Positions 57,519 to 63,217 of a DNA stretch of 64,000 nucleotides are shown in pieces; the first letter of the stretch is position 1; every line of letters begins with the position of its first letter. The stretch spans positions 1 to 64,000 of the forward strand of contig JAJPJL010000003.1 of assembly GCA_021324255.1 (NCBI GenBank), in the 5' to 3' direction. The notes under the pieces are model-generated. The model did no database searches, was not told the DNA's origin, and worked only from the letters and a program-made list of their open reading frames with translations. This DNA comes from Bacillota bacterium (GTDB taxonomy: Bacteria > Sysuimicrobiota > Sysuimicrobiia > Sysuimicrobiales > Segetimicrobiaceae). A program made the translations under genes and the position numbers.

Positions 57519-58586
57519 TCAAGGGCCGGCCGCCGGAGACAGCGCCGGGCCGGCGAGCACGAGCGACGCGAGCCGGTCCAGGTCCGCGCGGCCCGAGACC
57601 TCGTAGACCGAAATCCGCTCGCACACCGCGGCCAGGGTGGATTCCACCACCGCGGGATCGGGCGGGCGAAGGTCGTAGACGCCGAGCCCCTTGACCACCT
57701 GCCCGAGCGCCGCGGCGCGCTCCGCCTGCGGGATCGTGTGCACGCTCCACCCCCGGCTGTCGAGGCTCCAGCGGAGCAGAAAGACGGCGCGCAGCGTGCC
57801 TCGAAGCCGGACGGTACCCGGCCCGTAGATGGCCTCTACGTCGACGTCTCGCTTGCGTTCGAGGCGCCACAACCGTTCGGGCGGCATCGGCCGGTAACGA
57901 GTCACCTCGTCCGCCGGCAACAGGCGGGTGAGCCGGGGCACGCGGAGGAGCGTCCCGGGATTGACGCGCGGCTGCTTTGGGATGCCCACCATCTCGGCGC
58001 CGTCCGGCGACGGCCGCAGGAAGAGACGATCGTTGCTCACCAGGTGATGATGCCGCTCGAGCAACATGAGCGCGAGCGTCGACTTGCCCGTTCCGGACGA
58101 CGAGGCAAACGCGATGCCCCCCGCGTCGCCGAGGATGGCGGAGGCGTGCAGCACGATGTAGCCGCGGTGCACCAGCGTCTTGGCCAGGGCCATCATCACC
58201 ATGTTGACGGCCTGGTTGAAGTTGGTCTCCACGTCTCCGACGACGTAGAGGCTCCGTTCCGCGACGTAGACGACCACGCCGGTCCGGCGCTTGAGGACGA
58301 CCCGAGCGTCGCCGGCGTCGTAGAACGCCTCCTTCACGCGGTCGGCGCGGGAGCGGCGGGGCACGTCCCGCATCCGGGCCTCGTCGTACACGGGCGTTCC
58401 GCAGAACAGAAACACCTCGGCGGCAGGCTCACCGCCATCCGCGCCGACGTAGGCGTCGAAATACCGGCACAGGCGTTCATGCACGGCGGGTGCATTGGTG
58501 TGCACGCGCAGCGGGATCCCGGCAATGTCCAGCGCGATGGTCGCGCTAGGCCGGTACGCGCGGATGATCGATGCCAGTTCGCTCAT
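57519..58586 (-). CDS. HprK-related kinase (HprK-related kinase B type)
   Basis: P-loop 'IAFASSSGTGKSTLALMLLERHHHLVSNDRLFLRPS' and 'MVGIPKQPRVNPGTLLRVPRL'; 'FNQAVNMVMMALAKTLVHRGYIVLHASAI'. Confidence 0.87.
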   Translation of the reverse strand: MSELASIIRAYRPSATIALDIAGIPLRVHTNAPAVHERLCRYFDAYVGADGGEPAAEVFLFCGTPVYDEARMRDVPRRSRADRVKEAFYDAGDARVVLKRRTGVVVYVAERSLYVVGDVETNFNQAVNMVMMALAKTLVHRGYIVLHASAILGDAGGIAFASSSGTGKSTLALMLLERHHHLVSNDRLFLRPSPDGAEMVGIPKQPRVNPGTLLRVPRLTRLLPADEVTRYRPMPPERLWRLERKRDVDVEAIYGPGTVRLRGTLRAVFLLRWSLDSRGWSVHTIPQAERAAALGQVVKGLGVYDLRPPDPAVVESTLAAVCERISVYEVSGRADLDRLASLVLAGPALSPAAGP

Positions 58587-59475
58587 CGGGCGTCCGTTCC
58601 CGGAGCGTGCGGACGACGTGCTCGGCGTAACGCTGCGCGGCGTCGATGCCCTGCGTGCGCCACAAGCCGCCGAAGCCGCCGAACGCGCTCACCTCGTACG
58701 CGAGATAGCCGTGCGGCCCTTCCACCAGATCCACGCACGTGAACGTCAACCCGAACACGGCGGCCGCCCGAACGGCGAAGTCCCGCATCGCCGGGGTGAC
58801 CGGACACGGTTCGTAATGGCCGCCGGCCGCGGTGGTCGTCAGCCAGGCATCGGTGCGCGCCACGCGGTAGTACGCCCCGAGCACCTCGCGGGCCAGGACG
58901 ACCACGCCGATATCCCGGCCGGCGTGCGGCACGTACTCCTGGACGTAAAAGGGCATGCGCCACTGCCGCTGCCAGCGCCGGAGCGCCAGGCGGAGGGGCG
59001 CTCCGCCGGCGAGCATCAACATGCCGCTTCCCTTGGACGTGAACAGCGGCTTGACGACCGCACGGCCCCACCGCCGGATCGCCGCCGCCGCCTCCGCGAC
59101 ACTCTCCGTCACGATCGTCCGGGGCAGCGGGATGCCCGCCTCGCTCAGGCGCTCCGTCATGCGGTAACGGTCCTGGACCTCCGCGACCGCCGGCGCCGGG
59201 CTGAAGACGCGAACGCCGCGCGCCTCGAGCTGGATCAGCAGGTGCACCCGGCTCGGCGCCATCGGATCCGTCGTGGAGCCCAGCTTCTTGACGACCACCG
59301 CATCGAGGTCGCCGAGATCGACGCCCGCATGCCGCACCGCGCCACCCGGCAGCTCGACGGCGCAGTCCGCGGCCGAAAACACGAGCGTCTCGCAGCCGCA
59401 CTGCTCCAGGGCCTGCCTGAGATGCTCGGTGGACCACGCCCCCGGAATGCCGGCGACGCCGACCCGCAGCGTCAC
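58546..59475 (-). CDS. ATP-grasp domain protein (GAK-type)
   Basis: 'RYRMTERLSEAGIPLPRTIVTESVAEAAAAIRRWGRAVVKPLFTSKGSGMLML', 'YVQEYVPHAGRDIGVVVL', 'CVDLVEGPHGYLAYEVSAFGGF'. GTG start at 59475 overlaps the upstream stop (GTGA); 3' end overlaps the kinase gene. Confidence 0.87.
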   Translation of the reverse strand: MTLRVGVAGIPGAWSTEHLRQALEQCGCETLVFSAADCAVELPGGAVRHAGVDLGDLDAVVVKKLGSTTDPMAPSRVHLLIQLEARGVRVFSPAPAVAEVQDRYRMTERLSEAGIPLPRTIVTESVAEAAAAIRRWGRAVVKPLFTSKGSGMLMLAGGAPLRLALRRWQRQWRMPFYVQEYVPHAGRDIGVVVLAREVLGAYYRVARTDAWLTTTAAGGHYEPCPVTPAMRDFAVRAAAVFGLTFTCVDLVEGPHGYLAYEVSAFGGFGGLWRTQGIDAAQRYAEHVVRTLRERTPDERTGIDHPRVPA

Positions 59476-61076
59476 GACGCGGCCACCGCCTGCTGCAGCA
59501 ACGCCACACCCCGCCGCAGCAAGCCCTCGGCATGGTCGGGGTCGATGACGACCCGCACGGACGTCACGCACGACCGCGCGATGCTGAGGAGCAGCCGGCG
59601 CTCGAATGCGCGGTCGCCGTGCGCGGCGCCGAACTCCCGGGCGAACCGTTCGACGGCCGCATCGATCGCCGCGACGTCCTCCCGGACCGCCGGGGCGAGG
59701 TCGGGCCGGCGCTCCATGGAGAGCACAAACACGCTCACGTCCTGGAGGTAGTCGCCGAGCCGCGAGCGATGCACGTCGATGAACTTGATCTGTCCCGTCC
59801 GCTCGTTGTAGAGTACGTTGTTGGCGTTGAAGTCGCCGTGGAGCCAGACGGAGAACGGCGGTACGAGGGTCGGCTCCACGGCCTCCGCGCGCCGCAGCAG
59901 GTCGGCGAACGACGCGGGGCCGTCCGGCAGCGCGATCTGCCACTCCAGGTAGGGCCGCAGCTCGGGGTGCAGCGCAAACGCCTCCGGCAGGCGGCGCAGG
60001 ATCTGCGCGACGTAATCGACGGCGGGGGGCGTCCGGACAAGCGTGCTGTCCCACACCTGGCGCACGGCCGCAAGCACGCGCTCGGTCGCACGCAGCTTGG
60101 CGTCGCGCGGGGCATCGGACAGGTACAGCTCGGAGAGGAGCGCGCTGTCGACGAACTCGCGCAGCAGCGCCTGCCGGTCCCCGACCGTGACCGATCCAAG
60201 AATGCGGGGCGTGAGCCCGCCGGCGATCTGCTCCCACGCCCGGAGCTTTTCGGTCTCCTCCTGGATCTTGCGCCGGGTTCCCTCCTTGTAGAGTACGTCG
60301 CCCTCGCGGCCGGAGATCCGCGCCACCACCGCGCCGCTCACCCCGTCCCAGTACGGGCGAAACTCCACGTCGGGCCGCGTGCCCTCGGGAAGCAGCAGGT
60401 CGAGCTGCTGATACTGGGAGAACTTCAAGCGACGACGGGTCAGCAGGAAGATCACCTGCTCGCCGATATTGAGCGCGTAGTCGGCCACCTTTTCCAGATA
60501 CTTCATGACCGCCAAACAGTGCAGCACGTACGGGACGGCGGCGGGGTCGGTCTGAATGCGCCGGCGCGCCTCGCCGAGATAGCGGACGTAGTGCCTGTCC
60601 AGCTCCGACTCGCGCAGGCAGGCGCCGCGGGCCTTCTCCAGGTCGCGGGCGTTGAACGCGTCGACCACCTCCGCGACCGCGGTCACCGCGCACCGCTCGA
60701 GCTCGTCAAAGGTAAACTCGATGCGGGGAATCGCTTCGCGGACCAGCAGCCGGACACGCTTCGCGATGTGCGTCCCCGCGTCGCCGATCCGCTCGAGGTT
60801 GAGCGCGATCTTCACGGTGGCGCGAACGGCACGGAGCCCGTCCGCGGACAAACCGCCCGTCGCGGCGAGGGCGAAGCATCGTTCCTCGAGCTCCACGTTG
60901 AGATGGTCGACCGCGTCGTCGCGCTCGATGATCTCCTCGGCCAGCGCCAAATCGCGGCGCGCGTAGCACCGCAACGCCCGTTCGAGCTGGTCGACCGCCA
61001 GCCGCCCGAGCTTGGTGACCTCGCCCCGCACGCCGGTCAGCAGGCTATCGGTGGCCATGATGGCCTTTCCGGGCAT
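59472..61076 (-). CDS. PhoU-like domain fused to aminoglycoside phosphotransferase-like kinase domain
   Basis: N-term 'GEVTKLGRLAVDQLERALRCYARRDLALAEEIIERDDAVDHLNVELEERC...NLERIGDAGTHIAKR...KYLEKVADYALNIGEQVIFLL' (PhoU pattern). C-term 'FSVWLHGDFNANNVLYNERTGQIKFIDVHRSRLGDYLQDV' (APH catalytic loop). Confidence 0.87.
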   Translation of the reverse strand: MPGKAIMATDSLLTGVRGEVTKLGRLAVDQLERALRCYARRDLALAEEIIERDDAVDHLNVELEERCFALAATGGLSADGLRAVRATVKIALNLERIGDAGTHIAKRVRLLVREAIPRIEFTFDELERCAVTAVAEVVDAFNARDLEKARGACLRESELDRHYVRYLGEARRRIQTDPAAVPYVLHCLAVMKYLEKVADYALNIGEQVIFLLTRRRLKFSQYQQLDLLLPEGTRPDVEFRPYWDGVSGAVVARISGREGDVLYKEGTRRKIQEETEKLRAWEQIAGGLTPRILGSVTVGDRQALLREFVDSALLSELYLSDAPRDAKLRATERVLAAVRQVWDSTLVRTPPAVDYVAQILRRLPEAFALHPELRPYLEWQIALPDGPASFADLLRRAEAVEPTLVPPFSVWLHGDFNANNVLYNERTGQIKFIDVHRSRLGDYLQDVSVFVLSMERRPDLAPAVREDVAAIDAAVERFAREFGAAHGDRAFERRLLLSIARSCVTSVRVVIDPDHAEGLLRRGVALLQQAVAAS

Positions 61077-61162
61077 CCTCGGCCGTCACCGGCCGGATGC
61101 GTACGGTGTGCGGCCGGTCCACGGGCGGTTCGTCTCGTCGAAATGCGCGGGACCTTGGACGG

Positions 61163-61495
61163 TTACTGCGGCGCCGATGCGCCCGCGGACTGCCGGCCCC
61201 CTTCGTCCCTGGGATCGACGGTGATCTCGAGGGCCTCCGCCGCCGAGGCGTACTCCGGTTTCCACGAGAGCTCCATGGCGATGCTGCCCGCCGACTTCTC
61301 GGGCTTACCCTCGGCCTCGATCTCGAATGCGAGCATCGCGGTCGGCTCGAGCCGGACGCCGCGCTCCCCGGCCGTGAAGCCGATGACGCCGCGCCGCAAC
61401 CCGTCCGCGATCCTCACGAGGTAGTCCGCTACCTGGGACGCCCCGAGCGTGGCCGAAAACTCGAACGTGCCGCCTTTGTCCTCGCGCTTGGCCAT
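61163..61495 (-). CDS. Amphi-Trp domain small protein
   Basis: 'FEFSATLGASQVADYLVRIADGLRRGVIGFTAGERGVRLEPTAMLAFEIEAEGKPEKSAGSIAMELSWKPE' with terminal Trp-containing strand. Confidence 0.78.
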   Translation of the reverse strand: MAKREDKGGTFEFSATLGASQVADYLVRIADGLRRGVIGFTAGERGVRLEPTAMLAFEIEAEGKPEKSAGSIAMELSWKPEYASAAEALEITVDPRDEGGRQSAGASAPQ

Positions 61496-61531
61496 ATGCC
61501 TCCCCCTTTGGGCGCGCCTCGACGCCGGCTG

Positions 61532-61774
61532 TCAGGACGAGGTCGTGACGCTCAGCGGGACGCGCCAGTGGAGCCCGATGTGCATGGCCCCGCCGGTACC
61601 GTCTTCTTCGGCGCGAATCTCCAGGCGAATTACCTGTCCGAGGCGATAGGCGTGTCGTTCCTCGCTCGAGCGGATAACGACCGTGCCGTGCATCAGTCCC
61701 AACGAGAGCTGATTCATCAATCCGGCGGCCTCCACACACGGCATCGCTACCGTCGCCTTGAGCGGTCTCGCCAT
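61532..61774 (-). CDS. Second amphi-Trp-like small protein
   Basis: 'MARPLKATVAMPCVEAAGLMNQLSLGLMHGTVVIRSSEERHAYRLGQVIRLEIRAEEDGTGGAMHIGLHWRVPL' aligns along its length to the neighbouring amphi-Trp protein. Confidence 0.68.
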   Translation of the reverse strand: MARPLKATVAMPCVEAAGLMNQLSLGLMHGTVVIRSSEERHAYRLGQVIRLEIRAEEDGTGGAMHIGLHWRVPLSVTTSS

Positions 61775-61891
61775 GCGGTCACTCTCCCGGATGCGTCTTG
61801 GGGCTCGGGGTACGCCCACCCTCGCCTACCGCCGTCGCCTATGCGCCGCATGGCACCGGCGGCCGCGAGGGCCGCTCGATCGCATCTCTTG

Positions 61892-62719
61892 CTATCGCGT
61901 CTGACCGGCCGCCCCGGAGAAGCCAGCGGCGGCGCGGCGGGACGAACGGGCATGCCCCCCCGGCAGGGCGGCCCGCTCGCGCTGCGTCTTTGCGATCCGC
62001 TTGTACGCGCCGCTGATCTGGACGGCCAGGGGACCGTACGGCTGGCTCGCGACGGATGCGAGACCGTCGCGAATCGCCGATGTCACGGACGCCTGCGTGA
62101 TCTCGTCGATCGGCAGCACCGTCGTCTTGATCCCTACCTGCGCCCAGAAATGCGCGTCGCTGCCGCCCATGATAGGCAGACCGAGCCGCGTCGCCTCGGC
62201 GCCCACTCGATCGTCCATGGTGAAATCCTTGCCGTTCAACTCGAGCGCGTCGAGGGCGGCCAGCCGCGGCAGGCCGACCTTCGCCAGCTCCTTGCCCGGC
62301 CGAAACATGTGCGCCCCCGCCACGAACCCCCCGGCGTGCCGCACCGCGGCAATCGCCTCGTCGAACGGCGCCCTGTAGCCGGCCGTGGCAGGACGGGCGA
62401 GCGTGGCGTCGAGCGCCTCAAGCTGTCTCACGGTGCCCAGCACGATCAGGTCGCACCCCTCCAGGATGCTGAGCTCGGCGCCGCTGAGGAGCCGGAACCC
62501 ATCGGGCCCCTCGTAGACGCCGTCCGCATCGCTGTAGCGGAACTCGCGCCGGAGTGCTTCGTGGATGCGCCAGTAGTCCGCGGCATGAAAGTGCTCCACC
62601 AGGGCGACGCCGTCGAGCCCCAGGCGCTTCGCCTGCGCGATGTGCTGCCACACCGCGCGGGGAGCGAACGGAAAGGACTTCGAGAGCTTGGCGTGGGTAT
62701 GCAGGTCGATCCGTTTCAT
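61892..62719 (-). CDS. PHP domain metal-dependent phosphoesterase-like protein
   Basis: 'RIDLHTHAKLSKSFPF', 'GVALVEHFHAADYW', 'GAELSILEGCDLIVLG', 'IMGGSDAHFWAQVG'. Confidence 0.9.
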   Translation of the reverse strand: MKRIDLHTHAKLSKSFPFAPRAVWQHIAQAKRLGLDGVALVEHFHAADYWRIHEALRREFRYSDADGVYEGPDGFRLLSGAELSILEGCDLIVLGTVRQLEALDATLARPATAGYRAPFDEAIAAVRHAGGFVAGAHMFRPGKELAKVGLPRLAALDALELNGKDFTMDDRVGAEATRLGLPIMGGSDAHFWAQVGIKTTVLPIDEITQASVTSAIRDGLASVASQPYGPLAVQISGAYKRIAKTQRERAALPGGHARSSRRAAAGFSGAAGQTR

Positions 62720-62854
62720 CGTCGCGTCTCCCGGAGATGCTGCGAGTGTGCGGCGTCCGTCCCGACTCGAGCACAGGTCCGTTGTGAGCCGTCTCCATGG
62801 CCGTCCACACGAGCGTTTTCATCCCTCCGGCTCAAACTCTATCCGCCAGTGTTT

Positions 62855-62894
62855 AACCGGGCAAGATACGAACCAAAACCGAGGGCAAAGATAC
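62855..62894. repeat. Imperfect direct repeat AACCGGGCAAGATAC / AACCGAGGGCAAAGATAC in an AT-richer intergenic region
   Basis: Copies at 62855-62869 and 62877-62894, upstream of the PHP/GAK-like cluster. Confidence 0.55.
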
Positions 62895-62938
62895 TGTTAA
62901 CGAAAGGTTATGAATCGTGATGGCGTTGTGCGCAGACG

Positions 62939-63217
62939 CTACCCTTCGGGCGTCCACACGACCACCAGCGCCTCCGGCATGCCGCTGCGCGTTCGCAGCC
63001 AGTCATGGACGGCCGGCGGCCAGGTGTGGTCGATCTCGTGCATGAGCTTGCCCACCTGATAGACATCGCCCCAACGGCCCTTGACCCGGACGTGGCCGTG
63101 GGGCTTCAGCTTTTGACTGGTCGAAAACCACTCCCGAACGGCGTCCGGGGCGCTGATGGTGGAGTTCGCGGCGTAGTAGAACATGAACGCTGTCCGAGCA
63201 GGAATCGTCGTGGCCAT
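62939..63217 (-). CDS. Hypothetical protein (92 aa)
   Basis: Intact ORF with protein-like composition 'TAFMFYYAANSTISAPDAVREWFSTSQKLKPHGHVRVKGRWGDVYQVGKLMHEIDHTWPPAVHDWLR'; unlike the Arg/Pro-rich antisense ORFs. Confidence 0.6.
   Translation of the reverse strand: MATTIPARTAFMFYYAANSTISAPDAVREWFSTSQKLKPHGHVRVKGRWGDVYQVGKLMHEIDHTWPPAVHDWLRTRSGMPEALVVVWTPEG

Follow-up and report, generated by a model that had tools for sequence, protein, structure and literature searches.

A GAK-like gene cassette beside the pst-phoU operon as a candidate phosphate-homeostasis module

The question raised by positions 57519–62719 of the 64,000-nucleotide stretch of a Bacillota bacterium contig analyzed here (the window) is what its six consecutive genes do together. 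They resemble the GAK system, which is named in NCBIfam without an assigned function; a search of 5.39 million open papers provided no mention of "amphi-Trp", "GAK system" or "HprK-related kinase", and nothing relevant was found on PhoU/APH/ATP-grasp/RimK combinations. We lean toward the reading that the cassette is a variant of this uncharacterized system and works as a phosphate-homeostasis module. The elements of this reading that sequence comparison shows are an obligate trio (PhoU-APH fusion, ATP-grasp enzyme and HprK-related kinase B), one phosphoesterase module (here a PHP protein), the amphi-Trp proteins, a physical linkage to pst-phoU and a Pho-box-like promoter common to both. A first-pass annotation had considered the cassette GAK-like, and that much stands, with recurrent linkage found as well; the roles it suggested for the PhoU-APH and PHP genes and for the amphi-Trp proteins as substrates do not, and it missed the phosphate link, which mostly lies just outside the window. 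Once PhoU-APH is counted as a core component and the alternation of phosphoesterase modules and the link to Pst/Pho are recognized, the GAK system acquires a concrete, testable function, namely phosphate homeostasis.

Layout and family membership of the cassette

Six consecutive minus-strand ORFs were recovered from the sequence, all of them where the first-pass annotation had placed them. In the direction of transcription they encode a PHP-superfamily metallophosphoesterase (61892–62719, 275 aa; PHP_C 37.3 bits, 2e-9), amphi-Trp protein 2 (61532–61774, 80 aa), amphi-Trp protein 1 (61163–61495, 110 aa), the PhoU-APH fusion (59472–61076; phoU_full 143.7 bits, Pfam APH 42.6), a GAK-type ATP-grasp enzyme (58546–59475, 309 aa, GTG start) and HprK-related kinase B (HprK-B; 57519–58586, 355 aa). 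The 4-bp GTGA overlap described between the PhoU-APH and ATP-grasp genes and the 41-bp overlap between the ATP-grasp and HprK-B genes are both real in the sequence. For amphi-Trp protein 2, ATG at 61774 is a likelier start codon than GTG at 61819. A 92-aa ORF is located just upstream of the cassette (62939–63217, minus strand), and an ORF of equal length occupies the matching place in genome G001 of the same family.

Searches with the TIGRFAM GAK models, which had been suggested as a check, gave GAK families as the best matches of both the ATP-grasp enzyme and HprK-B. The GAK-like assignment was borne out by HprK-B (TIGR04355, HprK_rel_B; 228.6 bits against a cut-off of 200) and by amphi-Trp protein 1 (TIGR04354; 53.7 bits against 31), which exceeded their cut-offs, but not in full by the ATP-grasp enzyme, which fell just under its own (TIGR04356, grasp_GAK; 278.6 bits against 300). 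This was still its best family by 106 bits, the next best being MptN (172.8 bits). Amphi-Trp protein 2 scored 20.7 bits, below the cut-off of 31, and its orthologue in family genome G004 scored 32.7 bits, above it.

The cassette is thus similar to the NCBIfam GAK system (TIGR04354–TIGR04358) in having ATP-grasp, HprK-related kinase B and amphi-Trp genes in one operon and in the gene order PhoU-APH, ATP-grasp, HprK-B. It differs in the ATP-grasp score below 300 bits, in a PHP protein of its own type, in adjoining pst-phoU and in having no CofD-like or XXXCH gene. The absence of these last two partners, already noticed within the window, extends to the whole genome, where no CofD_rel_GAK match was above the cut-off (the top score, 92.8 bits against 340, was located elsewhere) and no XXXCH protein was found at all. 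A CofD-like gene is nearby in just 25 of the 57 well-flanked GAK loci defined below, and most other GAK genomes tested also had no XXXCH protein. The XXXCH protein at L100:5914–6510 shows a faint similarity to amphi-Trp at its N-terminus (E 0.035) and is perhaps a divergent amphi-Trp fusion.

The conserved core and the amphi-Trp proteins

Within the family (f1), the same six-gene order is present in G001, G002 and G004 with protein identities of 56–94%; in G003 the cassette genes lie on more than one contig, and no counterpart of the amphi-Trp protein 2 gene was found there. The GAK ATP-grasp gene occurs in 5 of the 12 family genomes and is absent from the other 7; amphi-Trp proteins, searched for in 10 of the 12, were found in the same five and no others. 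An alignment scan of a species-level collection (84,980 species) gave 490 ATP-grasp relatives, including those of cultured marine Roseibium, Halomonas, Marinomonas and Thalassospira. The 80 loci most similar to the window's ATP-grasp were read, about 17 kb each, with home-made gene calls; they come from Desulfovibrio and other Deltaproteobacteria, Phycisphaerae, Nitrospinae, Rokubacteria and Dehalococcoidia, as well as from the marine genera just named and others.

Among the 57 of these 80 loci with flanks of 4.5 kb or more on each side (well-flanked loci), PhoU-APH is present in 56 and adjoins the ATP-grasp gene in 55, HprK-B is present in 56 and amphi-Trp in 55. The gene-neighborhood survey proposed earlier therefore did find recurrent linkage around ATP-grasp and HprK-B. 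Pairwise distances among PhoU-APH, ATP-grasp and HprK-B correlate across 55 loci (r 0.85–0.88, uncorrected for species relatedness), with none of 500 permutations as high. The only labels given by NCBI to the fusion are "phosphotransferase" and "aminoglycoside phosphotransferase family protein", beside "GAK system ATP-grasp enzyme", and it has thus not so far been named as a part of the GAK core. By these counts, PhoU-APH is to be regarded as a core GAK component and not as the accessory kinase, outside the usual definition, that it had been taken for. We propose PhoU-APH beside ATP-grasp as a defining GAK trait, one which the window cassette has.

The PhoU part of the fusion covers about aa 10–215 and the aminoglycoside-phosphotransferase-like kinase about aa 239–470, and the kinase residues K264, H413, D415, N420 and D434 are present in 83/83 sequences. 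The fusion has two PhoU domains with ExxxD motifs, as in PhoU of the Pst system; it differs from that protein in being joined to an APH-like kinase, and a separate classical PhoU is encoded in the pst operon. In HprK-B, H147, GxGK168 and N185-D186-R187 are found in 87/87 sequences. The relatives of the ATP-grasp enzyme in the PDB are RimK and LysX, and it shares with the RimK/LysX/MptN alpha-L-glutamate ligases the ATP-grasp fold, the ATP-binding lysines and the Asp and Glu metal ligands (K142, K148, D249 and E261 in 91/91 sequences). However, LysX GRDIRV, WITNT and EVN correspond to GRDIGV, WLTTT and EVS in the window protein. The DxR and ExN substrate/metal motifs of RimK-type glutamate ligases are incomplete in all 91 sequences, which have G190 and S263 at the LysX Arg and Asn positions, and plain glutamate ligation by this enzyme is thus not assured.

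For amphi-Trp protein 1, AlphaFold predicted one helix and a sheet of four strands, at a pLDDT of about 90 or more in the core; no match to this fold was found in the PDB. Weak sequence matches of amphi-Trp proteins to designed and fatty-acid-binding proteins were dismissed as composition-driven. Relatives of RimK act on protein tails, and the target of HprK phosphorylation is a small protein; the amphi-Trp proteins are small too, their genes adjoin those of the enzymes and, as the counts above indicate, they are present in nearly all well-flanked loci. It could therefore be supposed, as the first-pass annotation did, that the ATP-grasp enzyme ligates amino acids to the amphi-Trp proteins and that HprK-B phosphorylates them. 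We consider such protein modification unlikely. A single Trp is the one invariant residue among 62 amphi-Trp sequences, which have no conserved Ser/Thr, Lys or C-terminus and whose tails are not conserved; no Ser/Thr position exceeds 69%, and the window protein has Ala there. The ATP-grasp enzyme, moreover, does not have the Arg and Asn kept by LysX-type ligases, and Haloferax volcanii has an amphi-Trp protein in a genome where HprK-B and the GAK ATP-grasp have no match over the cut-offs. The substrate role is accordingly unsupported. Lys and Arg are enriched at positions 64–79, and this, with the sole invariant Trp, suggests that anion binding fits the amphi-Trp proteins better than the role of a modified substrate.

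Alternative phosphoesterase modules

The PHP protein has the full set of metal-binding motifs (HxH, EH, H and DxH) of PHP phosphoesterases such as PsfC (7rty), BAD_1165 (3e0f) and RNase AM, and its metal-site residues D5, H7, H9, E42, H43, H137, D188 and H190 are invariant in the aligned GAK-linked relatives. It matched PsfC in the PDB at 1.5e-25 and scored 52.1 bits to CehA/McbA, below the cut-off of 80; it differs from the known enzymes in belonging to a GAK-linked subfamily of its own, whose members are 29–71% identical to it. Two kinds of protein are encoded in the slot preceding amphi-Trp and PhoU-APH, namely a PHP protein of this type or a member of the c6 family, which is roughly 387 aa long and has no Pfam match. 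The AlphaFold model of c6 (mean pLDDT 89) matched RNase AM by Foldseek (E 2.8e-6), with PHP proteins as all of the top four matches, and its conserved residues can be read as PHP motifs (HWHPE, PTQHN, PHPEQFW and GDDxH). No relation to PHP was detected by sequence profile (hhalign, E 0.16), being visible by structure only; on the evidence of the model, c6 is a PHP-fold protein new to Pfam.

In proteobacterial loci these are replaced by a histidine phosphatase, an ApaH-like metallophosphoesterase and a SixA-Nudix fusion, in some cases together with a Nudix protein. PHP or c6 occurs in 25 of the well-flanked loci and the histidine phosphatase/metallophosphoesterase/SixA-Nudix type in 26, never both, with neither in 6 of the 57; the exclusivity has a Fisher P of 7.5e-11, a naive value that ignores phylogeny. 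Judged from these gene contents, the PHP gene fills a phosphoesterase slot in which two kinds of module alternate, and is not the local accessory that it had been thought to be.

These phosphatases also bring to mind signaling by compounds like inositol pyrophosphates, in which the kinases would load a cyclitol with high-energy phosphates and the PHP, Nudix and histidine phosphatases would take them off again. An ATP-grasp kinase takes part in phosphate sensing in eukaryotes. Two papers (PMC11836120, PMC12678693) describe a histidine phosphatase and Nudix enzymes in the same process. However, no inositol-1-phosphate synthase (Ino1) was found in the window's genome or in the four other family genomes that carry the cassette, and none of the cassette proteins matched a known inositol-kinase family. 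An inositol phosphate is disfavored because Ino1 is missing from these genomes, and we hold this explanation to be improbable.

Linkage to pst and pho genes and proposed function

In the window's genome the cassette is linked to the pst-phoU operon plus phoBR. Beyond the window, the same contig carries phoU (66433–67116), pstB, pstA, pstC, phoR, phoB (71786–72463) and a pstS-like gene ending at 73787 (locus L150); the calls of pstA, pstC, phoR, phoB and pstS are based on the sequence itself and on the order of the homologous genes of G001 and G004. A plus-strand acetyl-CoA-synthetase-like gene (63473–65380) breaks the stretch between the cassette and these genes; in G001 small ORFs lie in its place between PhoU and PHP. 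The pst operon of G004 is downstream of HprK-B, with phoBR upstream of PHP. In G003, PhoU directly follows HprK-B and PstB is at the end of another contig, so that adjacency of PstB and cassette is unproven there. Each of the five family genomes that have the cassette encodes a single PstB and a single stand-alone PhoU, and both genes lie either next to the cassette or on the contigs that carry it. Since pst genes are upstream of the cassette in some genera and downstream in others, the linkage appears to have been repeated or maintained.

Loci of the window's variant from Nitrospirota (L071) and Rokubacteria (L083, L087) also have pst genes within them, and two Dehalococcoidia loci carry PstS. 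PstB was found in 9 of the 80 loci against 0.38 expected from a background of 59 PstB in 216 Mb (P about 3e-10, by a naive Poisson estimate that ignores phylogeny). Outside the window's variant it was found in 5 of 73 loci against 0.35 expected, and most of those loci have no pst gene nearby.

Sites for PhoB/PhoP have 11-bp-spaced repeats as their hallmark. Before the PHP gene, on the minus strand, lies a Pho-box-like tandem repeat, ATAAC-N6-TTAAC (62896–62911), with an 11-bp period; allowing at most one mismatch, this intergenic site is the single match to TTAAC-N6-TTAAC in the 64-kb window (mean of 0.07 in shuffled sequences). The motif also precedes the cassette in G001, G002, G003 and G004 and pst or pho genes in G001, G002, G004 and the window's genome (G000). 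Perfect copies were found in two Dehalococcoidia and one-mismatch copies in a third, but none in L071, L083 or L087. The repeat is part of a block on the same strand (62836–62911) that is conserved in the alignment of G000, G001 and G002, with diverged flanks; it contains additional T-rich half-sites at a spacing of about 11 bp, along with a TAGAGT −10-like element, and has no standard sigma-70 promoter match. On these motif matches, the window cassette has a Pho-box-like promoter common to it and the pst operon. The claim is limited to the window's variant because the E. coli-type pho box showed no enrichment across 70 GAK promoters (4 found, 3.5 expected).

The linkage also bears on the idea that HprK-B is an HPr kinase, that the cassette regulates carbon metabolism and that the phosphate neighbors are incidental. 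The P-loop and DR motif of HprK-B do align with those of HPr kinase structures (2qmh/1jb1), and 12 loci, one of them from a congener, have a PMM/PGM gene next to the cassette. In contrast to HPr kinase/phosphorylase, however, HprK-B has Asn for the first Asp of DDR and a family-specific K-x-P-R-x-N-P-G-T motif, and no canonical HPr was found in the window's genome or in 7 other cassette-bearing genomes tested (including G001, G003 and G004). Because HPr is absent and pst linkage is far above background, we see little likelihood of carbon control. An antiviral defense cassette, as kinases and phosphoesterases in defense systems and a patchy, at times plasmid-borne distribution might suggest, is very improbable because none of the six proteins had a PADLOC match, and the Pho-regulon context also speaks against it.

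Polyphosphate made by PPK1 was considered as the basis of GAK and rejected. PPK1 was not found in the window's genome and occurs, in a small sample, in 2 of 15 GAK-bearing genomes against 7 of 14 control genomes; GAK thus does not depend on it. From this small sample, GAK might stand in for polyphosphate storage. A gene for a CHAD domain (polyphosphate-binding type) is near the cassette in L130, L142 and L144, accompanied in L130 by a ppk-like gene at the end of the locus.

As a phosphate-homeostasis module, the cassette could work as follows. Low phosphate would switch the operon on through PhoB-type control, and the PhoU part of PhoU-APH would sense phosphate or Pst status and gate its kinase. 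The kinase may then phosphorylate a small molecule, which the ATP-grasp enzyme and HprK-B would elaborate with a further group or phosphate, and the PHP protein would reverse the modification by taking off the added group. The amphi-Trp proteins, with their Lys/Arg-rich strands, would either bind the product, which would be anionic, or serve as a scaffold for the enzymes, and would not be substrates. More tentatively, GAK as a whole may be a widespread and hitherto unrecognized phosphate-homeostasis pathway. A new phosphorylated metabolite, either signal or store, would then be the joint product of a kinase gated by PhoU, an HprK-like kinase and an atypical ATP-grasp enzyme; interchangeable phosphoesterases would turn it over, and amphi-Trp proteins would read it out.

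Several other neighbors were observed. In many loci a phosphomannomutase/phosphoglucomutase gene comes right after HprK-B or right after the amphi-Trp gene that follows HprK-B, as in L020 (congener G002), L061, L062, L067, L068, L069, L071, L089, L113 and L114. The loci L081, L100 and L114 are near genes for phosphatidylserine decarboxylase, an LGT-like protein and an 809-aa protein with no Pfam match, and a link to lipids is possible there. Three cassettes (L145, L146 and L153) are on plasmids of Rhodobacterales (Qingshengfaniella, Tritonibacter and Pseudooceanicola).
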